DNA of 64,000 nucleotides from an uncultured Elusimicrobia bacterium (GTDB taxonomy: Bacteria > Elusimicrobiota > Elusimicrobia > Elusimicrobiales > UBA9959), in assembly GCA_903873295.1 (NCBI GenBank), contig CAIQNV010000049.1, positions 1-64,000 on the forward strand, given 5' to 3'. The position numbers and the translations under genes are program-made. Below are positions 115 to 47,882 of this stretch, piece by piece; the stretch's first letter is position 1; the number at the start of each line of letters is the position of its first letter. The notes under the pieces were generated by a model. It made no database searches. It saw only the letters and a list, made by a program, of their open reading frames with translations, and was not told the DNA's origin.

Positions 115-3100
115 GTGCACTGTAATTCCAGAAGTTCCATAAAAGTTCACAGGGGGCTGGTCCACATGCCGGCGGTCATTTCGGGAAGACATATCCGCGG
201 CGTTTCCCTTGAGCTCACCTATCCGACCGAGACCGGCTGCTCTATTTCCGGCGACTCAGGGGGGATGTCCGTTATATTGTCCGCTGACGGTTACGATCCC
301 GACGACCGCGAGAACGTAAGCAGCGAGTGGGATAATATCCCGTTGATCTTAGCTTATCCTTTTTCAGTGCCGGCGCCGCTTACCTTTACCTCCTCCTTGG
401 CTATCACTAACCTGGACTGGAGGCTTCCGCAATATACGGCGCTGACGATAACAAAAACACCGAATACAAAAGCCATGACCAAAACCTGCCCCGGCGGGGT
501 TATTTCCGCTATTGCGCCCGGTGCGCTGGAGTACGAGGTTAAAGCGAGCATTGACTCCTCGTGGACCTCTATAGTGGCTCCGAGGGTAATCCACCAGGAG
601 TGGGTGCTGCCTGACCTCAATGTGCTAGTTAAGGCGGGAATATTGGAAGTGGAAATCGACAAAGTTATCGCCCCCGGGCGGGTCAGCGTTTCGCGCGCGC
701 AGTATGACCCCGGGATTACCGGGTTCAGGCTTGGCGGCGATAATTATGTCTACGACGTAAATATAGACGCCGTTTATGAAGGTAATGTCCGCGTGACCTT
801 CTACATAAACATGTCCGGCCTCACGGAGAAACAAAAAAGCGGTATCGCTGTATATCATAATAGCGGTGCGGGCTGGCAAAACGCGACCACTGAGGTCGGT
901 GCGGACCATGTAACTTACGAGGGGCCGACAGCGTCGCCTTTTGTGGTGCTGGTGCCGGTAGACGACACTCTGGCGCCCCAGACGAGCCTTTCATTGCTCG
1001 GCGCCGCCGCCGAAGCCGGCAATAAAACGTATATCTCTTCAGAGACCGCTGTTGAACTGTTCGCGCTGGACACGGCGCTGGATCCTGCGGATGTTACCGG
1101 CGTGGCTACCACCTACTACCTGATAGACGCCGAGCCCGCCGCGGAATGTCTGGCGACGCCTTATAACGCGGCGGCAGCGCCCGGCACATGCGCCAACCCT
1201 GTTTATACCAGTCCTTTTGTGCTGTCCGAAGGCGTCCGCGCGGTTTCATACCTCAGCGCGGATAAAGCCGGCAATTACGAGGCTGCCCGGTCGCGAACTT
1301 TATATGTCGACGGCACCGCGCCGAAAACCGCGCTTTTTGCCGGCGGAGCGGCGGTCGAGAATGCAGGCGCGGCCTATATGACCGACACGGCTTCGATAAC
1401 GATAACCGCCGTCGACCAGGAATCCAACGGGGTAAGTTCGAATGTAAAAGAGGTTTATCTTCTTATAGACGCTACAATGGCTTCCTGCGGCGAGCTGGGT
1501 CCGGTCGAGACCGGCGCCCCGGTCGGAAGCTGTCGGAATTATTTGTACACTGTGCCGTTTAGGACGACAGTCGGTACGCATACGGTGTATTATGGTGCGG
1601 TTGATAATGTGGGCAACCAGGCCGGGGTGAAGAGCGCCCGGCTAACGGTTATCGGGTCGGTGTACAGCTCCATTAAGGTGGGCGGCTATCCGGAGGTCAG
1701 TTTTAATTCGCCGGTGAGCAATACTGCCGTAACCCCCGTGGCCTTGGATTCCGCGCCGGGAATTGCCGCTTTAGCCGAAGCTTCTGCCGCCGGCCTGCAG
1801 CGGGTGAGCAATCTGTATGAACTTGGCCCTGACGGGAATTATCCGCAGTCCTCCAATATAATATTCTCGTATTCGCCCGCGGCTTTACCTGCCGGTATTT
1901 TGGAAGCCGGGATAGCTGTTTATGAACATTTCACATCCGGCGGGTGGGTTAAACTTTCCGGCCAGGCAGTGGATGCCGTAAACCACAGAATAACCGCGCC
2001 GGTGACGCAGATAGCGTCCTTGTTCGCTATTTTCAGCCAAAGACCCACGCTGGCCCCGGGCGCAGCCGGCTTAAGCGAGGAAACCGCCGCCGGGCTCACC
2101 GCGCGCTGGACCGCGAACGGCAATCCCGCCGGCACGCTCTATTCCGCGCAGCTCTCGACGGCGGCGGATTTTTCTCCGCCCGCGGCGTCAACGCAGACCG
2201 TGGACCTGAGCGCTATCTTCTCCGGGCTGGCGCCGAACACTACTTACTTCGGGCAGGCGGCGGCGTACAGTATAAACACCGGGACCTGGACGGCGTTCAC
2301 GCCGCTGGGCTCCGCTTCAACGCTCGCTAACGCACCCGCCTCAATATTGGTGAGCGCCGTAAACCGGACTTCGGTGAGCCTGGGCTGGGACGCTAATAAC
2401 AACCCTGTCCCCGGAACTGATTTTGAATTGTGGCGTGACGTGTCTTCCTCGTTCACTTCGCCGGTCAAAACCATCGTGCCCGCCGTGGTTTACCAGGCGC
2501 AGGGGCTTGCGCCAGATACCACCTACTACTTTAAGGTCCGGGTGAGCGGTAACAATGGCGCCTTCACTGCTTTTGATTCTACGGTGAGCACCGCCACCTG
2601 GCCGCCGGCACCGGGCCAGCCGGGAACGCCGGTGGGAACGGCTCTTGGCGTTTCCTCTGTTTCCTGGAGCTGGTCAGCCGCGCAGTACGGGCAGACCTAT
2701 AAAGTTTACCCGGCCGCCGACGCCGCCTCTTTAATAGCGAGCCCGTCCGCGCTTTCTTATGTGCAGACCGGGCTTTCCTCGAACACGGCTTACGGGATCG
2801 TTGTCGCGGGGCTTAACCCGGGCGGTCAGGGAGCGCTCTCATTGCCGGCTACAACTTATACCCTGGCGGCGCCTCCGGCCGGAACGGCCGTTTCCGGTAT
2901 CTGGATCACAAGCGCGGCTATAAGCTGGGAACTTAACGGCAACCCGCCGGGCACGGCGGCCCAAGTTCAGCGTTCTTCCGACGGCAGTTCCTTCGCCGGT
3001 GTTTTTCTTGGCGCGGCGCTGTCAGTTACTGACGCGGAGCTGGACGCCTGCACCACCTATTACTTTAGAGTGCGCAACAGGAACGGGGACGGGCAGGCTT

Positions 3101-4584
3101 CCGGGTATGATGCCGCTATCCATTTCACCACGTCGGGCTCCGCTCCTTCGGCGGCGGGCGGGCTGACGGCTGAATCACTCAGCGGCGGCAGGATCGCATT
3201 AGAGTGGGGCTTCTCGCCTTCGGCGGACGTTACGCAATACCGGCTGTATTACGGTTCCGGCGCCGGGACGATAGACTATACCACGCCTCTCGCTGTGTTC
3301 AGTTCCACCGTTACAAGCTGGACTACCGCCGCCTTAACACCCGGCACGGCCTATAAATTCGGCCTGAGAACAACCAACCGCTGCGGCATCGAAGAAGCGA
3401 ATACATCGCTTTTCGCCACGGCGGCGGCGCTCGGCAGCCTCACCGGAGTCCGCGCGGCTATTAAGTCTCCGCAGACCGGTAGGCATATCAAAGGCAACAG
3501 CGTTACGGTGGCAGCAGAATTGCTGCTCGGTAAGCCTGCGCAGATCAAGCAGGTCAGCTTCCAGTACAGCATCCCGGGGGCCGACAGTTGGACTGAACTA
3601 ACGGCGGCGAATATAAACCATCCGAACCCCGGTACGGCTTCACCTTATCTTATGCATTGGGATGTAGATGCTCTGAATGTGCCGGTCCCGACGGCTTATG
3701 AATTGCGCGCGGTCGCTACCGATACGGCCGATACAGCGGACGCCGCCCCGCCGGGTATTACAATAGTGGTGGATCCGGTGAATTTCGAAATTAACGAAAA
3801 CTTTTCAGGCGGCCGGGTCGAGAAAGAGCAAGAGCTCAATAATGTCGTCGCCAACACCGTGCAGGCGGCGGACGGTGGGTCCTCGCTGTTAACCAAAATC
3901 GTTATCCCCGCGGGCGCATTGGACAGTTCCACTGTAACGATCACAGTGGTTAATAACCCCGCCGTTAAACCGCCGGTCCCGCCGGGCGCCGAGGATGTGG
4001 GCATGTTTACTCGAATAAACCTGTCCAACGGCCAGAGCCGGCTTGCCGGCGGAAAAACGGCAATGCTGACGCTTAATTATAAGGATGACGACGATAACGG
4101 CGTGGTGGACGGGACCTCGGTAAGGGCCGATTATCTGAGGATGTATTCCGCGGCCACGGCGGCAGGCCCCTGGGCGCTTTTGCCGTCAAGCGTGGACAGG
4201 GCTAGGAGGTCAGTGACCGGAACCACGCCGCATTTCAGCTTCTTCGCCGTCTTTGCCGCAGCGGCGTCCGACCTCAGCGCGGTCCGGGTCTATCCTAATC
4301 CGTTCAAGCCCGGAGGCGGTAAGGCGGACGAAGGGATCGCCTACAGCGCAGGCAACCCGAACTCCGGGATAGTATTTGATAATCTTACGGAGCAGGTTAC
4401 TATAACGATCTATACGGTAACTGGCCAGCTTGTGGCTAAATTCAGTTCGGCGCACAGCGGCGGAAAGATACAATGGGACGCGAAAAACGACAGCGGGCGC
4501 GACGCAGCCTCCGGCGGCTATGCAGCCGTTATCTCCGGCCCGGGCCATTCCGCCGTGGTTAAAAAGATCCTGATAGTGCGGTAA
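115..4584 (+). CDS. Large secreted-type protein with Ig-like/chitobiase-like and multiple fibronectin type III repeats and a C-terminal FlgD/T9SS-like sorting domain; N-terminus uncertain (GTG start, no signal peptide seen)
   Basis: 1489-aa ORF; repeated FN3-like segments (e.g. VSLGWDANNNPVPGTDFELWRD, APDTTYYFKVRVSG); C-terminus VRVYPNPFKPGG...VTITIYTVTGQLVAKF...WDAKNDSGRDAASGGYAAVISG...KKILIVR. Confidence 0.8.
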   Translation: MHCNSRSSIKVHRGLVHMPAVISGRHIRGVSLELTYPTETGCSISGDSGGMSVILSADGYDPDDRENVSSEWDNIPLILAYPFSVPAPLTFTSSLAITNLDWRLPQYTALTITKTPNTKAMTKTCPGGVISAIAPGALEYEVKASIDSSWTSIVAPRVIHQEWVLPDLNVLVKAGILEVEIDKVIAPGRVSVSRAQYDPGITGFRLGGDNYVYDVNIDAVYEGNVRVTFYINMSGLTEKQKSGIAVYHNSGAGWQNATTEVGADHVTYEGPTASPFVVLVPVDDTLAPQTSLSLLGAAAEAGNKTYISSETAVELFALDTALDPADVTGVATTYYLIDAEPAAECLATPYNAAAAPGTCANPVYTSPFVLSEGVRAVSYLSADKAGNYEAARSRTLYVDGTAPKTALFAGGAAVENAGAAYMTDTASITITAVDQESNGVSSNVKEVYLLIDATMASCGELGPVETGAPVGSCRNYLYTVPFRTTVGTHTVYYGAVDNVGNQAGVKSARLTVIGSVYSSIKVGGYPEVSFNSPVSNTAVTPVALDSAPGIAALAEASAAGLQRVSNLYELGPDGNYPQSSNIIFSYSPAALPAGILEAGIAVYEHFTSGGWVKLSGQAVDAVNHRITAPVTQIASLFAIFSQRPTLAPGAAGLSEETAAGLTARWTANGNPAGTLYSAQLSTAADFSPPAASTQTVDLSAIFSGLAPNTTYFGQAAAYSINTGTWTAFTPLGSASTLANAPASILVSAVNRTSVSLGWDANNNPVPGTDFELWRDVSSSFTSPVKTIVPAVVYQAQGLAPDTTYYFKVRVSGNNGAFTAFDSTVSTATWPPAPGQPGTPVGTALGVSSVSWSWSAAQYGQTYKVYPAADAASLIASPSALSYVQTGLSSNTAYGIVVAGLNPGGQGALSLPATTYTLAAPPAGTAVSGIWITSAAISWELNGNPPGTAAQVQRSSDGSSFAGVFLGAALSVTDAELDACTTYYFRVRNRNGDGQASGYDAAIHFTTSGSAPSAAGGLTAESLSGGRIALEWGFSPSADVTQYRLYYGSGAGTIDYTTPLAVFSSTVTSWTTAALTPGTAYKFGLRTTNRCGIEEANTSLFATAAALGSLTGVRAAIKSPQTGRHIKGNSVTVAAELLLGKPAQIKQVSFQYSIPGADSWTELTAANINHPNPGTASPYLMHWDVDALNVPVPTAYELRAVATDTADTADAAPPGITIVVDPVNFEINENFSGGRVEKEQELNNVVANTVQAADGGSSLLTKIVIPAGALDSSTVTITVVNNPAVKPPVPPGAEDVGMFTRINLSNGQSRLAGGKTAMLTLNYKDDDDNGVVDGTSVRADYLRMYSAATAAGPWALLPSSVDRARRSVTGTTPHFSFFAVFAAAASDLSAVRVYPNPFKPGGGKADEGIAYSAGNPNSGIVFDNLTEQVTITIYTVTGQLVAKFSSAHSGGKIQWDAKNDSGRDAASGGYAAVISGPGHSAVVKKILIVR

Positions 4585-4591
4585 ATAATTT

Positions 4592-5521
4592 ATGAAATAT
4601 TTCAGATTGGCGGGCATTTTGCTGGCGGGTTTTTGCGGGGTACGGCCCTGCGCGGCGGCTTCTTCGGCCGGGGCCGAGCCGTTCAATTTCCTGTTCCTCG
4701 ACGCCAACGCCAGGGCAGTGGGAATGGGCGGGGCCTATACGGCGCTGGCCGCGGATGCTAATGCCCTTCTTTATAACCCCGCGGGACTGGGGCGCATCGG
4801 CGGCCGCGAAGCCACCTTCATGCATAATCAGCATTTCGAGGGGATAACGCAGGAATACTTCGGTTTCGCCGATCCCTCCGGGTGGGGGGTAAGCCTCAAT
4901 TATTTAAATTTCGGGGAGGTGCCTAAAACCACCGTCTCCAATCCCTCGGGGACGGGCCTGGGCAGCGCCGGCATGACGGACCTGGCCATCGGCGCGGGCT
5001 ACGGGCGGGCTATCAGCGAGTCCCTGAGCCTGGGCGCGGGGTTCAAGTTTATCAAGGAATCTATCGACGATATTTCGGTCGACGCGTTTGCCCTGGACCT
5101 GGGAGTTCTTTACTCCGTGCCCGGTATTCGGAAACTGGCTCTGGGCGTTGCGCTGCAAAACCTGGGGCCTGCCGTTAAATTTCAGGGAACCAGTGAAAGT
5201 CTGCCGCTTAATATGCGCGCCGGAGCGGCTTATGGCTTTACTATCTTCGACCGGAAAAGCATCGCGGCCATAGATGTAATGAAAGAGAAGAGCGAGACCG
5301 CGCTGACTGGTTTCGGGCTTGAAGTCATGGCCGCCAGAACAGTGCCGGTGCGCCTGGGATTTAACACGCGCAACGACGCGGGGACGGGCATTTCAGCCGG
5401 GCTGGGCTGGCTGCACAAGAGTTTTGGTTTCGATTATGCGATAATGTCCTACGGTGACCTGGGGCTTACTCACCGCATCAGTCTGACTTACACCTGGGGC
5501 CGGAGTGGCGGTCCTTTATAG
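4592..5521 (+). CDS. PorV/PorQ family (UPF0164-like) outer-membrane beta-barrel protein
   Basis: Signal peptide; FLDANARAVGMGGAYTALAADANALLYNPAGLGRI motif; ALQNLGPAVKF...LPLNMRAGA; FDYAIMSYGDLGLTHRISL. Begins 7 bp after the stop of the upstream gene. Confidence 0.85.
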   Translation: MKYFRLAGILLAGFCGVRPCAAASSAGAEPFNFLFLDANARAVGMGGAYTALAADANALLYNPAGLGRIGGREATFMHNQHFEGITQEYFGFADPSGWGVSLNYLNFGEVPKTTVSNPSGTGLGSAGMTDLAIGAGYGRAISESLSLGAGFKFIKESIDDISVDAFALDLGVLYSVPGIRKLALGVALQNLGPAVKFQGTSESLPLNMRAGAAYGFTIFDRKSIAAIDVMKEKSETALTGFGLEVMAARTVPVRLGFNTRNDAGTGISAGLGWLHKSFGFDYAIMSYGDLGLTHRISLTYTWGRSGGPL

Positions 5522-28452: not shown

Positions 28453-28528
28453 CAAAAGTGAGCAGTTCAGGGGACGTTAATAAGCCCTAAGGGTGGGCTA
28501 TGCCCGCGTTATAAAACAGGAGTTCCTA

Positions 28529-29974
28529 ATGCGTTATCTATTTTCTTTGATATTGCTGGCCGGCCTTTCCGTCTTTTCCGGCGCCGCCTACGTTAACTCG
28601 CTGCAGGGCGACGTCGACCTGAAAAAAGCCGGCGCCTCCGAATGGGTCCGCCTTACCGGGGCCGATAAAACGCCTCTCGGCGCGGGCGACGAAATGCGCA
28701 CCGCCCGGGCCTCCACGGCGGAGATCTACATGGACGACGGCTCAAAGGTGAAAGTAGCGCCGCTTACGGCCTTCAAACTGTCGACGGAGAACAAGGAGGC
28801 CGTCTCGCTCGGCCTGTATTTTGGCCGGGTGCGCTCCTGGGTGAAGAAATTCTCGAGAAAATTCGAAGTGCGCACCCCGTCGGCCGTCTGCGCCGTGCGC
28901 GGCACCGATTTCATGGTTTCCGCCGACGGCGACGGCAACAGCCGGGTGGAGGTCTACGAGGGCACCGTGCTGACCGGCGACTCCAAGGGTAATTCCGGGC
29001 TGGTGCGCGAAGGGCAGTTCTCCGAGATCCCCAACGGGGGGAAAATGAAGGACCCGGGGCAGAATCCCAACGAGCCCGGCGACATGAACTCCTCGCTGGG
29101 AGACGCCAGGCAGCTGGCCAGGGCCGAGATCTACAGCGAAATTTCAAAAGAGGACGTGCTGGCCCGGGCGCAGGAGGAGATGCAGTCGGCGGAGTACCAG
29201 AACCGCAAGGTGGCCATAGACGCCTTCGGCAACCGGGTGCGCATGGAAGAGTACACCATAAGGCCCGCCGCCGACCAGTTCAAGTACGTAGTGCTCAACA
29301 CCCGCGCCGACCGCTTCGACTTCGGGAAGATCCTGTTCACCTTCAACGCGGCCCTGCCCGCCGATCTCTCCCAGGCCACGCTGAACATGATCTCCTCGCC
29401 CGGTTCCACGGCGCCGCAGTGGCAGCTTGTAGCCATGAACAGCGTGATGAGCAATACCACCGACAAGGTTACCGAAGACGCCTCGGGGGGCGGCATGGCC
29501 TACAACGGCAGCCTGACCGATCCGCGCTATAATCTGGTTTTCGGAAATTATTCCTTTTACGCGGCGGGGCCGGCGGAGGCCAATGATAACGGCGGGCTGG
29601 GGAAGCTGTTCTGGACCAAGACGAATTACAATGTGCCCGCGAACCATTATGACTCAATTTCCTTCCTGGGGAGCGCCGCTCCTTTAATAGACGCCTCCAG
29701 CCCTTCCGGCGCCGATGTTTTTCACACCTTCGCGAAGAACACCTATAACGACGGCACCTGGATAGCGGCGGAGGACTTCGTGCTTTTTAATAACGGGGAC
29801 CTTCTCGCCGCCGGGGAGTTCAGCCAGGGCCTGGGCAACGGCAACACCGTTGACGAAATAACCGACAAGCTTAATTTTCAGCGCGTTTACACAAGTTCGC
29901 TTTTCGGCGGGCGCACCATCGACGTGATGTACTCCGCCAAGCTGCTGAAGGAAATCGGCCTGCTGCGGTTCTGA
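28529..29974 (+). CDS. FecR-domain secreted protein of unknown function
   Basis: Signal peptide MRYLFSLILLAGLSVFSGAA; FecR-like VNSLQGDVDLKK...AGDEMRTARASTAEIYMDDGSKVKVAPLTAFKL...VRTPSAVCAVRGTDF. Confidence 0.85.
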   Translation: MRYLFSLILLAGLSVFSGAAYVNSLQGDVDLKKAGASEWVRLTGADKTPLGAGDEMRTARASTAEIYMDDGSKVKVAPLTAFKLSTENKEAVSLGLYFGRVRSWVKKFSRKFEVRTPSAVCAVRGTDFMVSADGDGNSRVEVYEGTVLTGDSKGNSGLVREGQFSEIPNGGKMKDPGQNPNEPGDMNSSLGDARQLARAEIYSEISKEDVLARAQEEMQSAEYQNRKVAIDAFGNRVRMEEYTIRPAADQFKYVVLNTRADRFDFGKILFTFNAALPADLSQATLNMISSPGSTAPQWQLVAMNSVMSNTTDKVTEDASGGGMAYNGSLTDPRYNLVFGNYSFYAAGPAEANDNGGLGKLFWTKTNYNVPANHYDSISFLGSAAPLIDASSPSGADVFHTFAKNTYNDGTWIAAEDFVLFNNGDLLAAGEFSQGLGNGNTVDEITDKLNFQRVYTSSLFGGRTIDVMYSAKLLKEIGLLRF

Positions 29975-30018
29975 GGAAGGGCGGCGGGTCAATGAACGGA
30001 AGGATTTCTGGAGGAATA

Positions 30019-31269
30019 ATGCAGTTCAATTCTGTGAATAAAAAAACCAAGTTCCTGCTGGCGGCCGCCGTAGTTTTGCCTTTTTCCCTCTGCTCTCTGC
30101 CCCCGCTTTACGCGGCGATGAAAATAATACCCGTGGCCGATATTTCCCTGCTGGGCGGAAAATATTTCCTGGACTCGCAGGCCGCCGCCTTCCAGGGCCG
30201 CGTGGACGCTTTTATCTCCCCGGCGATCACGCTGGCGGAGAACCATGACCTGCTCCCGGTCTATTCCGGCAACTATTCGGGCACGCAGGACATACAGGAA
30301 CTGGCCGGCGGCGGCGTGCTTACCCGCAAGCGCCAGACGCACACTTTTTCCCTGAAATATATCTACACCAGCGATTTTAACAAGTATAAGCCGCGCCTCT
30401 CTTATTCGAAGGCGGGCATAAATGAAACTAAGGACGAGAAGTGGGGCGACGGACTTTTCGACTATGCCACGCTCTCTTTCGGGTTCGAGGCCGAGCAGGA
30501 GCGGCCGCGCGGGACCTATACCGAATCCTACGATTATTACAAGGTGGGGTATCCCAATTACAGCACGCTGCTGTCGCGGTCGCAGTCCGTCTTTAACGAC
30601 ACCACCACCTTCAACGAGCTTTCCACCAACGCCGGGGAAAATCCGCTGGACAATATCAGCCACCGCCTGGCTTTGGGCTATGCCTGGTTCCCCGAGCCGC
30701 TTAATATGAAGGCCAACTACGACTTTACCTACCGCACCTACGCCGAGCAGGCGATAGCGGCCAGGCCCGCCACGGGGCAGTCGCCCTTCAAGAGCGACAA
30801 GCGCTCCGACATAATGCAGAATTTCAGTCTTAAGGCCAGCCGGGCGCTTAAGCCGCTTTACCTGAGCGCCGTCGCGCGCCTGGGCTGGCTAAGTTCTAAT
30901 CAGGGGTCTTACGACTCTGTCCGCAGCAAGTACATGAAGGACTATTATAGTTATATGGATTTTTCCATAAGCCCGGCGATGGGCCTGGTGCTGGAGAACG
31001 GAGCGCAGTTTAATTTCGGCCTGGACTGGCGGCGGGTTTACTACCTGGGGCGCCTTAAACAGGGCAACACCGGAAATTACGGAAGCTCCGAGATAACCCA
31101 GACCTTCTGGCTTACTTCGCTTTCCGCGCGCTATCCAGTAGCCAAAAGGTTCTTCGCCCGGGCGGCCTGCAACTACCAGATCTCTTCCTCCAATATGCGT
31201 TACGAGGAGAGCTACCGGTATAACTACAGGGCCAGCACCTACCTGCTGGGTCTGGAGTGGGAGTTTTAA
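30019..31269 (+). CDS. Hypothetical outer-membrane beta-barrel protein
   Basis: Signal peptide (KTKFLLAAAVVLPFSLCSLPPLYA); alternating amphipathic strands rich in Y/F; C-terminus LLGLEWEF ends in aromatic F. Confidence 0.7.
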   Translation: MQFNSVNKKTKFLLAAAVVLPFSLCSLPPLYAAMKIIPVADISLLGGKYFLDSQAAAFQGRVDAFISPAITLAENHDLLPVYSGNYSGTQDIQELAGGGVLTRKRQTHTFSLKYIYTSDFNKYKPRLSYSKAGINETKDEKWGDGLFDYATLSFGFEAEQERPRGTYTESYDYYKVGYPNYSTLLSRSQSVFNDTTTFNELSTNAGENPLDNISHRLALGYAWFPEPLNMKANYDFTYRTYAEQAIAARPATGQSPFKSDKRSDIMQNFSLKASRALKPLYLSAVARLGWLSSNQGSYDSVRSKYMKDYYSYMDFSISPAMGLVLENGAQFNFGLDWRRVYYLGRLKQGNTGNYGSSEITQTFWLTSLSARYPVAKRFFARAACNYQISSSNMRYEESYRYNYRASTYLLGLEWEF

Positions 31270-31350: not shown

Positions 31351-34300
31351 ATGCGCAAGATAAAAAACATTTTCATAAACCTCCTGGGGGCGGCGCTTTT
31401 AGCCGCCGGCTCCGCCGGACCGGCGCTGGCCCAGTTCACCGGGGATTTCTCCCAGCCCGGCGGCGCGGTTTACGACGGCGGCTCGGAGGACCAGGCTCAC
31501 CGCGTGGCGGTGGATACCGTGGCGCTTAACGGGCCTTTTATTTATGTGGCGGGCACTTCGGAGTTCGACTCCCAGACTACCGGCTTAACCGCTAAGTACG
31601 ACAAATTCGGCGTGCTGGCGGCCTCCGCGGTCTTTACCGGCCCTGGTTCCAGCTTTGCAGTGAGCGACGGCATAGCCATAGGCGCCGACAATATCTTCGT
31701 CGCCGGCAGTGTAGGGGGGGGGCTATGCGTAGCGCAGAAGTATGATAAAAACCTGGTTTTTCAATCTTCAGCTACGTACTCTTTCAGCATTCAAGAGTGC
31801 GTCGGGAACGATATCACCCTCAGCAAGACCGGGAACCTTTATGTGACAGGCCACACGGGCTACACCTCGGAGTACCGTTCATTGCTGATAATAAAATACG
31901 ACGAGAACCTGAATTTCGCGAACGCCGTCACTTTCAGCGGCGGAGTTTACGATAAAGGAATGTCGATAAAAACCGATGACCGCGGGGATGTCTACGCGGT
32001 CGGCTATTCAAGCGCCGCCGGCAATTTGCAGATACTTACGTTGAAATATGATCCGGCGCTGGTTTTCATAAGCTCGGCGGTTTTCAGCATTCCCGCGGGA
32101 AGCCCTGAGAAACGGGTGTCCCTGAGCTTTGGCCAGGATTCCGTTTATGTGGCGGGTATAGATTTTGACAAGGGAGTTCTGCTTAAGTATAGCCTCGACC
32201 TGGTCTTTAAATCCTCGGCGGCTTTCAATCCCGGCGCCGCCAGCGGTTGGGAGGGGGTCGGAGTCAACAGCCTCGGAGACGTTTTCACCACCGGCAATGT
32301 GTTTAACGGCACCGACCTCGATTTCCTGACCGCCAAATACACCCCTGATCTCGTGTTCGTTTCCTCCATAGCGTACGACGGCGGCCACGAAGATGTGGCC
32401 CTGGACGTCGCGCTGGACGCTTCCGATAATCTTTATGTAATTGGCGTTTCGTCCAACAGCTTAAATAACGACTGGCGCACCCTGCGCTACCCGTCGTCCG
32501 CCTTCGGCGCGCCCGCCGCGCCCGCGGGCTTCACCGGGAATTTCGCCGCTCCGGGAGGCGCCGGGTTCGACGGCGGGGATATGGACTACGGCACCGGGAC
32601 GGCGTTCTATGGCTCCAATGTTTATGTTGTCGGGATTTCTTCTTCAGCCGGTGTTTTGTCCAGCCTTATTGTCAAATACGACCTGGCCGGGAATGTCGTC
32701 TCCTCCGCCACTTCCGCCGCTTTCGGCGACGCTGGCTTCTTTGATGTGAAGGCCAATGCCAACGGCGTATATGTAGCAGCTCAGGGGGAGGGATTTCTTA
32801 CTGTGAAGTACACTCCTGACCTGGTTTTTGTGTCTTCGGCCGTTCTCGCCGGAGATTCCAGCGCGCGCGATCTTGCGTTGGATACGGGCGGTAATGTCTA
32901 CGTGATAGGCTCCAATTGGGGCGACGCGGGAGGCAACAACGATTATAAGTTCGTGAAGTATAGCAAGGATCTGGCCCAAATTGGTTCGCCGGTCACCTTC
33001 AACGCCGGAGGCATGGATGAGGGCAGAGGCATAGCCGTTGATAACGGCAATGTTTACATCACGGGCGACAGCCTGATAGGCAACACTACTTATTTTGCAA
33101 CCGCGAAATTCGATTCGTCGTCGATGGCTTTTATTTCTTCCGCCTCGTACGCCGGCGGTTATCTCGACGGGCCGGCCCATGAACGCTTAGCTGTAAACCC
33201 GGTTACGCACGACGTTTATCTGTTGGGCGCGCAGGGCCCTGAAGGCAGCAGTCATCTGGTAACTGTGAAATATTCGCAGAACCTGCAGCAGATGGTGGCG
33301 GATATCTTCCCCGGCGACGGCTCCAGCAAGGGCAAAGTGTTTGGCACGGATATAAAACTGGATGCTGACGGCAACGTCTACTCGCTCGGTAAAGATTCCT
33401 ATGAGACCGGCGGGATAACTTATGAATATGCGCTGGTGGTAAAATACACGCCCGGCCTTGTTTTCCTCTCCAGCGCTGCAAGCTCCGCCGGGTCCATTAA
33501 ATATAACGGCTTTGCCATCGCCCTGGATACCACTACCGGCTACAGCTACGTAACTGGTCTCGCTGACGATGACGCGGGCCAGGTGGACATGCGCACCGTG
33601 CGCTTCGACCCGCTAGGCGGGGTGGCTCCGGTCGCGCACGCCATGGGGCCGAACGAATTTATTATTAAAGAGACGGACGTCGAAGACTCCGGCGGGTTCT
33701 CCGCGTACGGCGGGGGGAAATTCCTGGTGGGCTATCAGCACGCTACTTCAAGCATCACCGCGCGGCTCGTTCTGCCGGACGGGACCTTAGTGGGCTCCGA
33801 AATCACTTTCAACACCACTACCGAATACGGCTCCGGCGGCTGGCCCGCTTTCGCGTTCGGCGGCACTGATTTCCTTATGGCCTGGGCCTGCGACCTGCCC
33901 GGGTATCAGGGGCGGATACGCGGCCAGCGCATCGACACCTCCGGGAATAAAGTCGGCTCCTCTTTCTGGATCAGCTCTACCAGCGGTTTCGACTCGCATC
34001 AGTTGGGAAATATCGCATTCGACGGTGTAAATTATTTTGTCGTCTGGAGCGCGAGCGATACGGTGAATTCGTACGATAACATGTACGGCCAGTTCGTAAG
34101 CACGGCCGGCGTTTTAGTCGGCTCAAGGCTTACAATAGGGGCCGGCGGAAAAGACGGCACGGTCGCGTACGGCCATGGCAAATATCTCGCTGCCTGGCGC
34201 AACGACGGCAATTACGGAGATGTCGGCCCGGTAAAAGGCCGGCTGATACTTCCTAATCAGATTTTCGGCGGCACGGAGTTCGTGATCGACGCGAGCCCCG

Positions 34301-37300
34301 CCCCGAGTTATAATCCTGTAATAGTTGCGGCGGACAATACGAGATTTCTTGTCGCTTTCCATGATGAATGGAGTGCTCCCTGCAGCGAAGTGAACCCTGA
34401 TTGTTCCGTTTCCTCCCACTTGTTCGGTAAATTCGTGAACGCTGACGGCACGGTGGCGCCTTCCACTTTCACCATTTCAGACAGCCCCGATGCGCAGTTC
34501 TTGCCCGAGCCGGTCTGGGACGGATCCAAATACCTGATAACCTGGAACGACGCCGATGGGCTTTCCACCGCTACCGTGCATATGCGGTATTTCGACGCTT
34601 CCGGCAATCCGCTGGACGCTGATACCGTGATCGCTTCCGCGGTATCGGGAAGGATCCCGTTCAGCCTCGGATTCTCCTATGACAGCGCGGATAAAAAATT
34701 CTTTGGCGGAGTAAATCGATACCCTGTAACCGGCAGTTACGACGATGCGACCACCGATCTCTACGGCCTTATCCTCACCACTACGAGCAGTGGTGCCGGT
34801 TTCACCGGGAATTTCTCGGAATCCGGCGGCGCGGTTTATGACGGCGGGAACTCTGACGTAGGCGCGGATATCGCTCTTAACCCGGCCACCGACGACACTT
34901 ATGTGGTGGGAGCCTCTTCGGTTTCCGGTCTGAGTCAGGGACTTGTGATCAAGTATAACGCGGCCGGAGTGATGGTCGCGTCCGCGCCGGTCACGGATAC
35001 CGGCGGCATGTATCTGTCGGGCGTCGCGCTTAATGGCAACGGCATCTACGTAGCCGGCGGGGTCTATAATACGAATAATTTCGTGGTTAAAAGGTACGGG
35101 CCCGGGTTGAATTTGATATCCAGCGCGGTTTTACCCGGTGTGCACACGCCAAGAGTGGCTTTGGACGGCGCCGGGAACGTCTATCTTGCCGGTTCTTCCG
35201 ACGGCGACCATAACTATCATCTCGCCAAATACGGCCTCGGTCTCGGCTTTATCTCCAGCACGACCTTTGATGCCGGCGGCGTCGACAGGGCGATCGGAGT
35301 GGCGGTGGACAACGGTTACGCTTACGTCACCGGGTACGCCCTGATAAGCAACAGCACCTATTATGTCACCGCGAAGTTCGACGCGGGCTCATTGGCCTTT
35401 GTTTCTTCCGTTTCATATGCGAACGCTTATGCGGAAGGAGGATCTTTTGAACGCCTGGCCGTTAACCCGGTCACTCATGAGGTTTATCTTGTGGGCACGC
35501 ACGGCACGGAAAACAACAGGCAGATGGTGACGGTCAAATATTCCCAGACTTTGCAGCAGCTCGGCGAAGCCATCTTCCCCGGCGGCAGCTATGGGCTGGG
35601 TGCCGACGTGAAACTGGATACCGCCGGCAATGTGTACGCGCTCGGAAAGGAGTATAACGGCTCGGACTACGCGTTCGTCGCCAAGTATAATTCCGCCCTG
35701 GTTTTCCTTTCCAGCGCGGCAAGCGCGTCCGTTCCCGGGAGCTTCACCGGCATGGCCGTTGCCCTTGATACCACCACCGGCAATAGTTATGTGACGGGAA
35801 TTAAATCCGACGGCGGCATCGGGCCAAAAGACCCCACGAACGATATCCGCACCGTGCGCTTCGCCCCGCTCGGCGGGGTCGCTCCGGTCGTGCACGCCAA
35901 GGGGCCTAACGAGTTTGTTATCAGTGAGACCGACGGCAGGGATTCCGGCGGCAGCGTCGCATATGGAAACGGCAATTTTTTGACCGTGTATCAAAAGAAC
36001 GATGTCAACGTCGAAGCAAGGCTTTTTGATACGAGCGGCAATCCGGTCGGCGCCGAAATCGTTCCCGCCGGGAATACGGACTGTCAAGCCGGGCAGGGGC
36101 CTGCCGTGGCTTTTGACGGTACAAATTTCCTGATGACATGGGGCTGTCGTTTGTTGTCTAACACATCGGCGATCCGTGGTCAGCGCGTTGATTCGTCGGG
36201 TAATACAATAGGTTCGGCGTTCGCCATAAGCGCCTTCACAGGTTCGCGGGGCGATGGGGATGTGGCGTTTGACGGCACCAATTATTTCGCGGTCTGGAGT
36301 TCGACCGAAAGCGGCGCGTGGAATATCTACGGACAGTTCATTTCAGCGACAGGCGCGCTGGTCAACTCCCGCATAACAATAGCTACCCCGGCGACGGCCT
36401 GGATAGACCACACACCGGTAAAGTATGCCGGCGGAAAGTATCTGGTCACATGGACTGAAGGAAACAACGTGAAAGGCCGGATGGTACTGCCGAATGGCAG
36501 CCTTTATGGCTCTGAAATAGCCGTTAATGTGGATTCCCTTACGAGCGATGGTCCCACGGTTATAGCGTACGATCCCGGTTCTGCAAAATTCCTTGTGACA
36601 TATAACAACGGGATTAACGTCAACAGTAGACATTTGTATGGCAGATTTGTAGACCTGTCCGGTGTTGCGGGCTCCAGTTTCACTATTACCGAAGCTGCGG
36701 GCAATCAGTTCGGCGCGGTTCCTGTGTGGGACGGTTCTAAATATCTGATAACGTGGAGTGACGGCTATCCACTTTCTACGGCCACTGTTCATAAACGTAA
36801 TTTCAGCGGCGCGGGCATTCCGCTTGATACGGATGCCATCATCGCGTCCAATGAGTCCGGTAAAGTTCCGTTGAGTATTGCCTCGGCCATTGCCGGCGGA
36901 AAGGTGTTTGTGCTCGTCAACAGAGGCGATATAGGGTCGTATAACGATGCCAGCCTCGATCTCTACGGCCTTATCATCACCACCACCGCGATCCAGCAGG
37001 CCGCGGGGTTCACCGGGAATTTCTCGCAGGCGGACGGGGCCGGGTTTGACGGCGGGGCTATGGACTTCGGCACGGCCGCCGCGTTCTATGGCTCGAATGT
37101 GTATGTCGTCGGGCTGTCCTCGCCTACCGGCGCCATTATCGTTAAATACGACCTGGCCGGGAACGTGGTGTCTTCCGCCACTTTGGGCGGGCTGGAGTCG
37201 TTTGACGGCGTGGCCGTTAATGCCAACGGCGTCTACGCAGCCGGCAAGGGCGTGACGGGGACGGGGTTTGTGACCGCGAAGTATAATTACAGCCTGACCC

Positions 37301-40300
37301 TTACTTCCGCGGCGGTCCTTCCCGGGCAGAACCACGCGCGGGACCTGGCGCTGGATACCGGCGGCAATGTTTACGTGGTCGGTGCGAACGACACCGAGAC
37401 CGGCTATAAATTCGTCAAGTACAGCGCGGACCTCGCGCAGCAGGGCTCCCCTGTCGTCTTCAACGCCGGCGGCGCGGCCACCGGCAGAGGCATAGCCGTC
37501 GACAGCGGGAACATCTACGTCACAGGCGACAGCCTTATAGGCGCAGCCACGTATTATGTGACCGCCAGATATAATTCATCGCTGGCTTTCGTCTCCTCCG
37601 TCGCGTACGCGGGCGGCTACTCCAACAGCGAAAGCTTAGGCGCGAAACTGGCGATCAATGCGGCCACGCATGAGGTTTATTTTGTGGGCACGCACGGCGC
37701 CCACACGGACCTGATCGACAGCAATATCCTGACGATAAAATATTCCCAGAACCTGGTGCAGCTGGCTGCCGCCCTGGCCCCCCACTATTACGCGGAGGGC
37801 ACCGACATCGCGCTCGACAATGCCGGCAATGTTTATACGCTCGGCGTGAACCAGGTTATTAATAACGGCCCTGATTACCCGGTGGTGCTTAAATATAATT
37901 CCGACCTGGTTTTCCTTTCCAGCGCGACCCGGCAGATGACCAACTGGTATGCGCCTTTCGGCCTCGCGCTGGATAATGCCACGGGCGAAAGCTATGTGAC
38001 CGGGTTAGATGATGGAGGGGGCATCTCTTCGGACATGCGCACCGTGCGCTTCGCGCCGCTGGGCGGCTCCGTGCCCGTGGTATATATTTCCACCCGTGAC
38101 GTCTCGCCGGCGGTTTACCTGGCCGGCCAGGAGGCCGCGGCGCTCAGGATAACCCCGCATACGCTTTCCGGTACGGTTTCCTTCACCGGCCTTCAGATCG
38201 CGGTAAACCCGGCCGGGGCTTACGCTAATGTCGCGTCCGCGGCTCTCTACGCCGACCTCGACAGCGATCAGATCTGGAATCCCAGGAACGACCTGCTACT
38301 GTCCAGCGGCGCGGTTACCTCCGCCGGTCATTACTTTGACCTCAGCGGTATGGGCGGCGTGATCGATCCGGATACGGTGGTCCTTTTCATAACTTTGACC
38401 CCGGCTATTTCGGCCGTGGACAGCAGTATTAATGTGGCCGTGCCTTCCTCCGCCTCTTTCCACACCAACGGCGATATGGCCCAGCAGACCATCTATCCCA
38501 TAACTTCGACTCCCACGCTGGTCACCTATCTGGCCGGCTTGACCGATCTTACCGCCGAACCCGGCGCGAACCTGAACTCGGTCAGCCTGAGCTGGACCTA
38601 TCCGCAGGATATCACCTCCGGGCATTATATAATCCGCTACAGCACGAATACGGCCGATCTTGATAACCCGAATCTTAACGCCGTCACGGGAGCGATAAGC
38701 GGTATCACGGCCGGGGCTTACGGCAGCTACACGGCGAGCGGACTCACCCCCGTGACCAGCGGCCTGCGGGTGTTCCCTTACTACTTCGCCGTCTGGCTCT
38801 ACAACGGGATCAGCACCTCCGCCGTTTCTTCCACCCTGGCGCGGAACCTGTACTTCCCCGCGGCCGCCGTGAGCGACAAGGACGCCGCGCTTACTCTCCG
38901 CACAGGCATGAGCCTTACAGCTGAAAACGCGGCCAGGTTCGCCAAGTCAACCGCCGCCGCGGGCGCGTATTCCGCCCTTACCTTCTATGACGGCGGTAAA
39001 TACTTCATCGCCCTTAATACTCCGGACGGGAAGACCCAATTCTATTACGACCAGACTTATCTGGCGCTTAGAGACCTGGCCGCCGATCCAGCGGGGAACG
39101 CTTACGGCCTGATACAGAAAGCGAACAACGTCTCCCTGGTCGTAAAGCTCGGCCCGGACGGGGCGGTTTTGTGGACCAGCCCCTTCACCTCTTCCTCGAG
39201 CGAAACCGCCAGGGCGCTGACCTATGGCGCCGGCGCCGTTTACTACGCGGCCACCGGTTTCCAGCCCGGCTCCGCCGGCCAGGATATTAAACTGCGCAAG
39301 CTGAGAGATACCGACGGCGCTTTGCTCGCGGTCTACAGCAGCTCGCCCGCGGGCTCTTACGACGAGGTGAACAGCCTCGCCTTCGTGCAGGACGCGTCGG
39401 GTAAATATGTTTACGCCGCCGGCGCCAGCGGGTCTCCGCTGTACGGCATGCTGTACAAGTTCGCGGATACCGGCACGGCTTTTTCCGTCTCCCCATCCGC
39501 TGTCGCCGGCAGCTGGCCCGTGCGGTACGTCAACCCGGGCGGCGGGGATGCCCGCGCCCTGGCAGTAAAAGCTGACAGCCTGAACAATACCCTGGTGGTG
39601 GTCGGCGCCGAGCAGCGCAACGACCTGAACCAGGGTTCCAATATCTGGCTTAACAGATATGGCCCTTATGGCGCGCCCATATTCGCCAATCCTACGCGCT
39701 ACAACAACGCGCAGTCTAATTCTGACGATATCCCCGTCGGGCTGGACTTCGACAGCTTCGGCAATATTTACGTCTCCGGCTACACCGACATGTGGAACCT
39801 GGGGCAGGGCTATAATATGCTCCTGGGCAAGTTCGGACCCGGAGGCCAGTTCCTCTCCGCTCGCATTTATGACTCCGGTTCCGGCTCAAACGACACAGGC
39901 GCCGGAGTGCTGGTCTCCACTAATAATTATGCGTATGTGGCCGGTATGTTCGGCGCGGCCGGCACCTTCGGCGTTTACTCCTTGCCGCTGGGCTCTTCGG
40001 TCAACGCGCAGTTCTTCACCGCCGCGGAGGGCCCCTACACGGGCTCCGCGGACCTGACCTGGAACTACACCGGCAGCCTGCCCGCCGGCTCCACCTATTA
40101 TGTGCAGTACAGCACCGCCCTGGCGCCCGTCTGGAGCCGCGCCTCGGCGCAGCTGGCGGTCAACGCGGGTCCTTCGTATTCCGGCGCGGTGCAGTCGCAG
40201 CGCCTGGGCGGTCTGCCTGCGCTGCGCTACCCCGGCCAGGACGGCCAGGAGACGCGCGGGAACGCCTACAAGTTCAAGGTCTGGATAACCAGCGGCGGCC

Positions 40301-43300
40301 TTACTACCGAGCTGCCTGTGGCGCAGACTTTCGCCCGGACGCCTTCGGCCTATGATAATACGCAGTATTTCGGGCGCGAGCGCCTCTCGTATATGAGCGG
40401 CCTGAGCGGCCCGGGCGGCGGCATAGCCGTCGACGGTACCTATGTCTATCACGCTTTCGGCGGCAGCTCGGAAGGCGGTTCCGCCGGGTTCGGGCTGCGC
40501 AAGTATAATACGGACCAATACCTGGAATGGACCAAGTTCTTTAACCACGCGGGCGACCGCGCCTATAATGTGGCCAATGTGACGCGCGACGCCGCCGGCA
40601 ATTTCTACCTGGTGGGCAGCCAGCGGCTCCCTGATACCGCGGCGGGCGCGCCTGATTATCTGGCGGCGGACAAGGACCTGTGGATCGCCAAGCTGGACGC
40701 GGCGGGCGACCTGGTCTGGTCCTACTCGGCCGACGCTTCAGGCATAAACCAAATGGATGAGCTTTACGACGTCGCTGTGGAGGAAATCGGAGCGCAGAAA
40801 TTCCTGTACGTAACGGGCGTCGCCGCCACAGTTTCCAGCGGCCTTGATATGGTGGCGCGGAAATACGATGTTTCACAATCGACTTATATCGCGCCGCTGT
40901 GGACCTATTCCGAGCCCGGCGCCGGCGAAGACGTCGGTTACGGCGTAGCCGTGGGGACCGGCGCGGTCTATCTGTCCGGCGCCGTGTTCAACACGGATAA
41001 GGATATTATCGTGCGGGCGCTCAGCAAGACCAGCGGCCTGCCCGTCGGGGGCCCGATAGTGATCAACTCCGGGCACGGCGACGACGCGGGCTATGACCTG
41101 GCCGTCACCACCGCCGCGCCGGGGTACATCTATGTGGCCGGCTCGGTCGGCACCGCGAGCGAGGGGACTAATGCCGCGCTCTTCAAGTATAGCCTGGCCG
41201 GAGCTTTAGTGTGGGACCGCTATTACAACGGCAGGGCCGGCGCGGACGACGCCCTCCTCGGAGTGAAAGCCAGCGGCAGCGGGGTAATTGTCGCCGGCTA
41301 TGAAACCACCTACGACCAGGGAAAGAACAGCATTTACCGCAAGTTCAGCGCCGCAGGAACCGAGGAGTGGAGCCGCGGCTTTGACTTCGCCGGCGGCGGC
41401 GATGACGAGGCCCATACCCTGGCGCTGGACGCCTCGGGGCGGGTCTATTCAACGGTCTCCCTATGGAGCAAGAATCCCGGCTTCTACTACTTCCCCGAGC
41501 CCAGCTTCGGCCTGATGGCCGCCGCGAATTATGTGCCGGGCTCGGTGCGGCTGGACTGGATGAGCCAGTACGAAGTGCCCGCCGGCTCGCTCTTCAGTAT
41601 TCAATACTCCACCAACAGCGGCCAGGTCTGGGATCCGGCCGGCGCCCAGGTGCGGTTCGGCGCCGACGCTTACATCAGGGCGGGTATGAATGTCACCCGC
41701 GCTGTTTATGGTCTGGATAACGGCCGCGATATGCAGGGTGCGCCCGTGGGCCCCGGCTACTTCTTCAGGGTGTGGTTCTCGACCGCGGCGGGGATCTTTA
41801 CCCCGGTGCCCGGCGTGGCTTCGGCCCGCGCCTCCGACGGCTGGGCGTTCGAGAATATGGTCATGTATCCTAACGAAGCCAAGCTTTTCGTAATGGGCAA
41901 TAACCAGCAGGGAACTTCCTCCGTAAATATATCGGGAGAAAAAGAGCTGCCCGGTATAGCGCGCGACGCCGCCGGCAGCCTCTATATGCTGGCCAATATG
42001 GACTGGAACAGCAGCGGCGGCTTTGCCATAAAGAAATTCAGCTCCGCCCTGACGCCGGTCTGGACCAGGTATTACGCTCCCGGCGAGCGGTTCGCGGTTA
42101 AAGCCAACCGGATGGCGGCTGACGCCGAGGGGAATCTCTATCTGACCGGCTACGAGCGCGGTCCTGACAGCTCCAACGGCAAGGATATTTTCGTCATGAA
42201 GTTCGGCAGCGGGGGTCTGGTCTGGAAATCCACCTATAACTTCGCCGGCGGGGACGATACCGGCTACGGCGTGGCGCTTGACGCCTCCGGCAATGTTTAC
42301 GTGGCCGGCTCGGTGTACACCGGGTCCGACGACGATATCTTCGCCGCCAAATTCAGTCCGGCGGGCGTGCTGCTGGATACCGTGACATACTCCGGCAGCG
42401 GCAGCGGGCCGGATGCGGCCTACGGCATAGCGGTGCAGGATGCAAATCTGTACCTGACCGGCTCGTCATATGAGACGGATCACGGCTCTCATTTCTGGAC
42501 GGGGCTTTTCAGCTCTTCCGGACTCGACCAGCTCGGCACCTCCCTCACCGGCGGCGACGCCGCCGGCTCGGGTTACGACGTCGCGGTAGATACTTTAGGC
42601 TACGTCTACGCAGCGGGCGAGATATACGGCGCCGATACCGCCAACGACGCTCTGGTCACGAAAAGCTATGCGAACCTCGACGCCGTGCCGGGCGCGTACC
42701 CGATCCGTTATAACAGCCCGGGCAACGCCAACGACGCCGCCTATGGCCTTGCCATAGACGCCGCCGGAAGCGTTTACGTCACCGGCTCCCAGGAGCGCTA
42801 CGACATAAACCAGGACAAGAACCTCTGGATCCGCAAGTATGCGCGGGACGGTTCCGAGCTCTGGAGCCAGGAATTCCATTCCAACGCCATCCCCGGCGAT
42901 CCTTACAGCGCGGGCGCCAACTCCGACGAGGGTTTCAGCCTCGCTGTGGGTACTATGGGCTTTGTGTCGGTGAGCGGCAGGTTCAACGACTACTACGGCC
43001 TGTACCGCTACCGCCAGACCAGCACGCTGGCCGTCAATCCCACGCTTACCGTGGTGGTATCCAGCGCCTCCTGCTCCTCCTGCGCGTCCTTCCGTTTCGG
43101 GGGGGTGGGCGTGGCGCTGATCCCTTACTCGCAGACCGGCGGCATTGACGCGGCCAGCATAAGGAGCTCCGTCACTTCCCCTTCCGGGACGGCTTCTTTT
43201 CAGGTGCCTTCCGGCAAGCAGTATTTCATCGCGCTGGACAAGCAGGGCTATAACCCCAACATAAAAGACCAGCAGATGGATCCCTACGGGAACTTCTTCG

Positions 43301-46300
43301 TGCAGCTTAACGCCGATATCACCAAGCAGTACACCCTGTCGCCGCGCCCCGCCAGCGACCCGTATTACCCGCTGACGGTGACGGTCACCTCCGCTACCGC
43401 CAGCGACTATATTATGGCGGAAGTGTTCTTTACCCAGACCGGCGAGAAAGCGGCTTACGGTATAGCACAGGTGCCGGTAAACAGGAGCAGCGTGACCTTC
43501 ACGGTCGCCAACGTGCCTCCGGCGGACGCGGGCGCGTACACGCTGGGCGTGACCATCCCCGGCCGCGGCCTGGCGCGCAGCCTTCCTATGAACGCGCTTT
43601 TCCCGCAGACGAGTTCGTATATAGTCAACATGTCCACCTCCTCCGGCGCCGTCGCGACCACCGGCGGTTTCGACGTGGGGGCTTCCACCACGCCGCCGTC
43701 GGTGGAAGGCGTGGCCAGGAACGCGGGCACCTGGGCCCCGGTGGAAGGGGTGCGCGTGCGGATGTGGAATTCAGTGCAGAACTGCATGAGCGGGAACTGC
43801 GATTACAATGTCTACGAGACGCTCACCGACGTGACCGGCAAGTATTCATTCTACAACGTGGTAAGCACTCCCGCGTATTACAACCTGTCCGCCCAGAAGG
43901 CGGGCTATAAGCGGGCCTGGGACGGCGGGCTTACGATAGCCGCCAACGCGGCTACCATCTACCGCGAGTTCCGGCTGGAGGAGTCCACCTATACCCTGCG
44001 CGGCGTGATACGCTACCGGGACGTCCCGGTGCCTAACGCCGACGTTATGGTTTGGGGCGACTACAGCTGGTACCAGAACGGCTCCGACAGCTACCGCGGC
44101 GGCCGCGGCATGGATACCGACGCCAGGACCAAGACAGGGGCCGACGGCTCCTTCGTGTTCAGCGGCGCCACGCTGAACGGCCTGCCTGACGGACAGCTGC
44201 GCATGAACGTGTCCTTCTTCGGCAACTGGGTGGACCTTAATCAGGGCAATAACCAATCCAGCTCGGCGGATGACGTGCGTATCATCATCTCCAGCGACTC
44301 CGCCACCGGAGCAGGCAATTGCGCCAAGGGCAGAGTTTGGAAACTTTTGGCCGAAAGCGGCGCCTGCCAGGAGTCCGGGGATATCAACTTCAACATCATG
44401 CCCCAGGCGCAGAACGATTATGCCACGCTCAGCGGCTCCGTGACCTTTGTCACGACTTACACCGTAAGCGGTACCAACCCGCTGGTGATAAGCTCCATGG
44501 CGCCGGTGACGGTGATGGCTATGCAGGAGTGCAGCGGCGACTGCAAAGGCCGGTCCATGGGCTTCGCGGTGATCAGCGGCACCTACGAGCTCAATACGGC
44601 CACCTACAGCATAACTCTGTCCACCGGCATCTCCTATTACACCCGCATAACCTCGAACGAATGGGGCGAAACCAGCGCTTTCGACGACAGGGCCGATTTC
44701 CGCTCCACTACCACGCTCTCGGTCGTCATGAACTTCGTGATTACGAAAGCGGGCTCGATGAAAGGCGTGGTAAAAATGCCGGACGGCTCCAACTACAAGC
44801 CGAATTACAACTTCGCGTCGGCGGAGCAGTACCACAGGATCGATATCAACGTAGCCGGCCAGAACGTGAACGTGAACGAGGGCTGGAGCGTGGACGATTA
44901 CGGCGCCTTTGAGTTTCCCAACCTGGCGCCGGGTCTCTACACCATCACAATGAGGCCCCAGGGTCTCGGTTTCCACTGGGCCGCGCCGGCTCTGACCGGA
45001 GTGGCCGTTGTGGCCGGGAAGACTACGCAGGTCACGCTGAAACTGGAGGATGGCCTGGTGGTGCAGCCGCAGATAATAGGCCTCCCGGAGATCTCCACGC
45101 CTACCTGGTCTTACCTGATGATACCGGTGGAATCCGGTACCGAGATGAACCAGAAGAAGATCACCGAGATGTTCTTCGGCTCCGACGTCTTCGCCTTCAA
45201 CTACAGCACCAGCACGCATCTCTGGGACAAGAAGGTGATGCTTACCGGCCAGTACGACTTCTATCTCATGATGGGCGCGCGCTACAGCCCGGAGGGAGGC
45301 AACAACCAGCCCCTGAGCTTCGACCAGTTCGGCAACTTCATCGGCAAGGTAAAGGGCTTTGCCGTGCAGCGGGTGGAAAACTCGCCCAACCTGGGCACCG
45401 AGGCCCAGCCCATACCGGTTAACGTGCTGGGCTCGCTCGGGCAGGACTCGTTCGGGGGCACTATCGTCGGAGAGCGGGTCTATACCGATGCCGACCTCGA
45501 CAGGATCTTCTCCAACATGAACGAGATCTACCCGGTTATTCCGACCGTCATGGTGTACGACGCGGCCGGGGACCTGCGCGGCTATACCGCCGGCCTGCCC
45601 GGCAAAGAGGACTTCAACGCGTTCTGGAACGCCCTGCTTGCCAAAGATAAGGCGCAGATGAAGGCTTACTTCGCGGCGCATCCGAGCCGGTTCATGGTGC
45701 CCGGCCTGCCGCCGGGGCGCTACACGGTGGTATTCTCCAACCCCAACTACCCGCCCATAGCTAAAGAGCTGGACATTCCGCTGGCGTCGTCTTTCAACGG
45801 GGTTTACGCGTTCAACTTCGAGGAGCAGAGCGTGCGCACCGGCGATATTTACGGCACGGTCAGGAGCAGCGCGACCGGCCTGGGCCTGCCCAGCGCCGTG
45901 GTCTACCTGAAGCACCGGACCGTGGAGAAGTTCGCCGATACCGCCGCCGACGGCTCTTATTCCTTCTCCAACCTCCCCCCGGGCATCTACCGCCTGGAGG
46001 TTACGCGCGAAGGCTTTGTGAAGACCGGCCAGAAAACTTCCCTGACCGGCTCGCTGACGGGCGACGACGAGTCGAAGCTGGACTTCTATCTTACGCCGTC
46101 GCAGACTAACATGACGGGCAAGGTCTACCTGAGCAAGTTCCCCGCCCCGCTGACGAAGTCGGGCGTAAAAATAGTGGCTTACGACGAGACCTATAACACA
46201 GAGCACCCCTCGGATTATCTGCCCAAGATAGAGGCCACCACCAACGACTCCGGCGAATACGAGATCGCCGGGGTAGTGCCGGGCCATAACTACAGGGTCT

Positions 46301-47685: not shown

Positions 47686-47710
47686 GCCAGGGAAGGGCAG
47701 CGTTAAAGAG

Positions 47711-47810
47711 TTCACCGCTGAGACGCGGAGGACAGAATGAGCAGAGAGTAGGGACACGGATTAATATTTTCTCTTCCGAACTCTGCGACCTCTGCGCCTC
47801 CGCGGTGAAT
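47711..47810. repeat. CACGGAG-like palindromic repeat, family C copy 2
   Basis: ttcaccgctgagacgcggagg ... cctctgcgcctccgcggtgaa imperfect inverted repeat in the intergenic space. Confidence 0.75.
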
Positions 47811-47882
47811 ATCGGTAAATCGGCCCGATTAGTGAATTGATTGATTTGTTTTTATGAGGAAAAGAATCGATTGAGGTAATTT

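Follow-up and report, generated by a model that had tools for sequence, protein, structure and literature searches.

Gene pairs of Type-A-like CTD cargos and PorV-class barrels in Elusimicrobia suggest one barrel per cargo

Introduction

Does a PorV-family barrel that is encoded directly behind a large repeat protein serve that protein in particular, or is it a general shuttle that would take any cargo? The question is raised by the 64,000-nucleotide stretch of DNA from an uncultured Elusimicrobia bacterium that was analysed here (the window), in which, as had been noticed from the letters alone, the same two-gene logic occurs twice and in the same order (115-5521 and 31351-48815). The original prediction was that this repeated pairing reflects cargo-specific shuttles rather than one general PorV. 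For Type B CTDs, cognate cargo-shuttle pairs encoded by adjacent genes have been described (PMC12618676), and the T9SS is described as limited to the FCB superphylum, its genes being absent outside FCB phyla (PMC11285876). We found no report of a T9SS in Elusimicrobia in the literature searched, a search that left most subscription papers and preprints outside, and the co-mentions appear to be passing.

Two gene pairs in the window

The two ORFs of the first pair (115-4584 and 4592-5521) exist as originally described, barrel 1 following cargo 1 after 7 bp; between cargo 2 and barrel 2 the gap is 197 bp (Table 1). The quoted tail motif, PNPF...(I/V)Y...G..V...WD.(K/R)ND.G...ASG.Y...K(I/L)...I(V/I)(R/K), is present, and so are the barrel motifs NPAGL, ALQNLG..(V/M)KF...LPLN(M/L)RAGA and DYA..(Y/F)GDLG..HR. 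Cargo 1 had been called a secreted FN3 protein; the FN3 part is borne out by Pfam (3.4e-22, with FlgD_ig matching weakly at the C terminus), whereas its secretion is something that we only infer, since ORF 115-4584, which lies at the contig edge (window base 1 is the contig start, and the frame has a stop at 91-93), shows no signal peptide. A signal-peptide-like start is present in the 5444-aa cargo 2 and in the paralogue cargo on contig C79.

Table 1. Features of the two cargo-barrel pairs, in window positions
Feature	Position	Strand	Remarks
Cargo 1	115..4584	+	ORF, 1489 aa, FN3 repeats; putative start, contig edge
Best FN3 domain of cargo 1	3148..3402	+	Pfam PF00041, residues 1012-1096
Domain adjoining the CTD of cargo 1	3991..4233	+	about 80 aa, residues 1293-1373; retained with the CTD where the remaining passenger differs; BLAST between related cargos
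Type-A-like CTD of cargo 1	4282..4581	+	profile A1 94 bits; TIGR04183 23.7 bits
Gap, cargo 1 to barrel 1	4585..4591	no strand	7 bp
Barrel 1, PorV/PorQ-family, 14-strand	4592..5521	+	309 aa; NF033709 160 bits; PDB 6h3i PorV by sequence; fold 8gl6/6h3i PorV
Cargo 2	31351..47685	+	5444-aa repeat protein, signal-peptide-like N terminus
Type-A-like CTD of cargo 2	47428..47682	+	profile A1 73.8 bits; TIGR04183 25.4 bits, above cut-off
Barrel 2, PorV/PorQ-family	47883..48815	+	310 aa; NF033709 187 bits

With TIGR04183 (T9SS type A sorting domain; cut-off 23 bits) the tail of cargo 1 scores 17.8 bits when the protein is taken whole and 23.7 bits in a genome search, the model exceeding its cut-off at 15 places in this genome. 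The best two PDB matches of A1, a profile built from the tails of this genome, are the CTDs of PorZ and PorU, with the NucA CTD lower. Scanning cargo 1 with Pfam and both tails with NCBIfam gave no match to a Type B CTD (PF13585, TIGR04131). A single-sequence fold model of CTD 1 (pLDDT 34) gave no usable structure.

Both barrels fall in the PorV/PorQ family NF033709 by a wide margin (160.1 and 186.8 bits; cut-off 90 bits) and share 32% identity (E 4e-35), though neither is a PorV or a PorQ equivalog: they score 69.7 and 80.9 bits with NF033710, for which at least 250 bits define PorV, and 110.3 and 137.5 bits with NF033711, for which at least 220 bits define PorQ. Both are thus nearer PorQ than PorV in NCBIfam. 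With the PorP/SprF models barrel 1 reaches 22.9 (PF11751, cut-off 22.3) and 22.1 (TIGR03519, cut-off 90.55), and it scores higher as PorV.

Cargo 2 is preceded, at window positions 28493-31269, by genes for a FecR-like protein and for a predicted outer-membrane protein. On contig C99 (L032), too, a FecR-like gene is found, there in the middle of a pair, with the CTD on one side and PorV on the other.

Pairing across the phylum

This genome encodes some 22 PorV-family genes and some 25 CTDs, and a CTD gene lies directly upstream of 17 of the 22 PorV genes and two to three genes upstream of 3 more. Across eight genomes of the phylum, counting a PorV-family gene as adjacent if it follows the CTD within 600 bp on the same strand, at least 92 of 150 CTDs have one directly downstream, as compared with 0.46 expected; the reverse order, PorV before CTD, was not found among the matches listed for these genomes. 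The genome-wide adjacency that the original prediction implied is therefore present. Paired genes occur in 7 of the 8 genomes; of the 86 PorVs that exceed the family cut-off, at least 69 come immediately after a CTD. In three other assemblies (two Elusimicrobia and one Omnitrophota), the PorV most closely related to barrel 1 likewise follows a CTD cargo, and the CTD is of the same subtype. Pairing is the rule and not absolute, since 58 of the 150 CTDs (39%) among the matches listed for the eight genomes stand without an adjacent PorV; these orphans must share a barrel.

Some loci depart from the simple pair. In L041 (3966-4490) an ORF6N-like ORF of 174 aa lies between a CTD cargo and a PorV-like gene, as if inserted into the pair. 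On contigs C4 (L028) and C82 (L030), very long repeat proteins resembling the tail-fibre type, with no CTD recognised on them, stand beside two PorV genes that have C-terminal TPR-like extensions. In one related family, the small genomes retain SprA together with one to three PorV-family genes, but most of these genomes have no CTD that the profile recognises; another tail, or only one cargo, may be in use there.

Covariation of CTDs and barrels

Because a plain distance score could be driven by generally divergent rows, the co-phylogeny of CTDs and barrels was assessed with row-centred tests. The distances among CTDs and those among PorVs vary together, both inside genomes and from family to family, as expected for cargo-specific barrels: the row-centred Mantel correlation is r = 0.36 for the 92 listed pairs, against 0.01 +/- 0.02 with partners shuffled inside genomes, and the best matches of CTD and PorV in another genome agree in 143 of 371 cases, where chance would give 22. 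Among paralogues the correlation is significant in five genomes taken singly (p from 0.0005 to 0.011). It persists between families only (r = 0.33; best-match agreement 82 of 273 versus 15.6), and is also seen when the comparison is restricted to cargos whose passengers show no similarity (r = 0.28, p = 0.001).

In genome G045, the pair most closely related to the first window pair has a PorV that is 80% and a CTD that is 73% identical, and carries a laminin-G-like passenger where cargo 1 has FN3; all that the two cargos have in common otherwise is a stretch of 86 aa just before the CTD. The passenger has thus changed while CTD and PorV stayed alike, which marks CTD plus PorV as the kept unit. 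Several cargo-PorV units have been duplicated or inherited whole, passenger included.

The CTD is, at the same time, the part of the cargo nearest the PorV gene, and tightly linked sequences co-diverge without any contact, so neither the co-phylogeny nor the change of passenger is proof of binding; linkage by itself could yield part of the former and the same pattern in the latter. The extracellular half of PorV tracks the CTD more than the periplasmic half does within genomes (partial 0.31 vs 0.11; 2 of 219 label shifts) and over all pairs (11 of 219 shifts), and the difference falls short of significance between families (28 of 219), the split between the halves resting on a barrel model of moderate confidence (pLDDT 64). 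This loop-side signal, read from that model, is suggestive only, and would partly separate recognition from linkage.

The strongest competing explanation is that the barrels are promiscuous, i.e. that any PorV takes any CTD, the pairing merely balances amounts, the unit duplicates as such, and the trees agree by linkage. It would fit the units duplicated or inherited whole and the 39% of CTDs among the matches listed that must use a barrel other than an adjacent one, and it has a precedent in Bacteroidota, where all Type A CTDs share a single PorV (PMC12618676). We nonetheless regard promiscuity as unlikely, because the CTD-PorV correlation remains where passengers are unrelated, CTD and PorV remain paired through changes of passenger, the loop side carries a signal within genomes, and some 20 PorVs cost more than a single general one would.

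The barrels and an SprA-type translocon

Of 100 genomes of the phylum, 91 encode an SprA homologue about 1800 aa long. In this genome it reaches 137 bits with TIGR04189, below the curated cut-off of 200, and a profile of seven such homologues matches solved SprA at 8e-34; the profile alone found this match, as a single-sequence search of the PDB and a Pfam search gave none. Of the nine SprA-negative genomes, seven lack every PorV and every CTD, and none of the 91 SprA-positive genomes lacks PorV (Fisher 2e-9, a value that is overstated since the SprA-negative genomes are partly close relatives). The T9SS features present are an SprA homologue, Type A CTD cargos and a PorV-class barrel.

These data bear on a second alternative, that the barrels are FadL-like channels which import whatever the neighbouring surface protein binds or breaks down, and are not secretion parts at all. 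In its fold model (pLDDT 64), barrel 1 shows 14 strands and resembles FadL, with TodX and FadL as its next matches after PorV, and barrel 2 has a sub-threshold match to Toluene_X in Pfam. An uptake role is nevertheless very improbable, given that PorV is the best match by sequence and by fold (the best solved structures being PorV subunits of the T9SS translocon), that NF033709 is passed widely, and that the presence of PorV follows SprA across the phylum. A chance or artefactual juxtaposition of two unrelated neighbours on one contig, for which one might cite the contig-edge position and putative start of cargo 1, is refuted by the at least 92 pairs in 7 of 8 genomes, none reversed among the matches listed, and by the same pair in three independently assembled relatives.

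A PorU-type sortase (peptidase C25) was found in 0 of the 8 genomes and in 1 of 100 in the phylum, and the match in this single positive genome is strong, so the search is able to find C25. With models built on Bacteroidota and with no positive control, GldM was found in 0 of 8 genomes and GldL in 0 of 100 above cut-off, with three weak matches. No motor-like genes lie near SprA, the neighbours being lptF/lptG-like and comF-like.

The only C25 matches in the 100 genomes, in G006, are on two contigs (L162, L163) and could be sortase or cargo. At the SprA loci of seven genomes from several families (L059-L065), lptF/lptG-like LPS-export permease genes always adjoin, and comF-like genes mostly do.

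Possible anchoring by the barrels

Among the 76 paired PorVs of the other genomes, 34 are longer than 400 aa. Ten long PorVs were scanned for C-terminal modules, which proved to be OmpA (3), LysM (1), TPR (2), CsgG/LpoB-like (2), a carboxypeptidase-regulatory domain (1) and DUF2914 (2); no peptidoglycan-binding module is present on either window barrel. The C terminus of PorV-class barrels is periplasmic, and OmpA and LysM fused there would therefore grip the cell wall. A comparable cell-wall part, PorE, stands beside Type B pairs in Flavobacterium (PMC12618676), and in porU mutants of Porphyromonas the cargo stays on PorV, while PorQ anchors PorZ (PMC5562754). A phylum without sortase should permanently be in this cargo-on-PorV state. 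By analogy with these systems, the missing sortase and the peptidoglycan-binding fusions suggest that many of the barrels may be permanent anchors rather than recycling shuttles. Of the predicted cargo-specific shuttles, then, the specificity is well supported by adjacency and co-phylogeny; as for the shuttle part, with no sortase and with fused modules a receiver or anchor may fit better.

OmpA or LysM is fused to the barrel C terminus at L056 (5001-6392), L069 (485-2479), L118 (476-2536) and L130 (151-2145); in L118 a weak match to CHU_C (the Type B signal) lies between barrel and OmpA.

Proposed mechanism

We consider it probable that there is one barrel per cargo, which receives its CTD at SprA and then most likely anchors the cargo. 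What we infer in this scheme is that recognition is physically specific, that the barrel captures the CTD, and that the anchoring is permanent. The cargo would cross the inner membrane by Sec, and its Ig-like CTD would enter the SprA-type translocon, at whose lateral gate the PorV-family barrel from the next gene would sit. The barrel would bind that CTD with its extracellular loops, as PorV loops bind the CTD inside SprA (PMC10994853), and would carry the cargo out. Because there is no C25 sortase to cut the CTD, the cargo would most likely stay clamped in the barrel, which would thus become its anchor. The wider picture, which we offer tentatively and rate as somewhat short of probable, is a stripped-down T9SS outside FCB, with no sortase and possibly no GldLM motor; in each genome, some 20 cargos would be locked by uncut Type A CTDs in private PorV-class barrels, many of them tied to peptidoglycan, as a one-barrel-per-protein surface display.

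Relation to known systems

The nearest parallel is the Type B CTD/PorP-SprF system of Flavobacterium johnsoniae (PMC12618676), which likewise has a shuttle gene directly downstream of the cargo, an SprA translocon, CTDs that are mostly paired with some orphans sharing, and peptidoglycan-binding PorE-like partners in some operons. It differs in that its CTDs are Type B and its shuttles PorP/SprF, whereas here, in another phylum, Type-A-like CTDs go with PorV/PorQ-family barrels and the peptidoglycan-binding module is, in some pairs, fused to the barrel itself. The PorZ-PorQ and PorU-PorV pairs of Porphyromonas gingivalis (PMC5562754, PMC10202324) are alike in that an uncleaved Type A CTD is held by a dedicated barrel, as we propose here; the window barrels are nearer PorQ, and among solved structures the CTD profile fits PorZ and PorU best. 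P. gingivalis has two such pairs, for its attachment complex, while here there are about 20 pairs per genome and no sortase was found in eight genomes. The Type A CTD/PorV shuttle of Bacteroidota (PMC10994853, PMC5562754) shares the CTD family, the barrel family and the SprA homologue, and differs from one barrel per cargo in that all Type A cargos there rely on a single recycling PorV and have their CTD removed by PorU.

The cognate-pair principle is thus known; its use with Type-A-like CTDs and PorV-class barrels, at this scale and in this phylum, is new. A phylum-wide set of SprA, PorV and CTD with one barrel per cargo challenges both the restriction of the T9SS to FCB (PMC11285876) and the single-PorV rule (PMC12618676), and about 20 natural cognate pairs per genome are direct material for testing CTD-barrel recognition. 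Speculatively, anchoring could be the older role of PorV-class barrels, with sortase recycling added later.

Some CTD cargos are giants: an open frame in this genome (contig C64) is 13111 aa long, one in G037 has 17343 aa, and one in G045 has 10805 aa.
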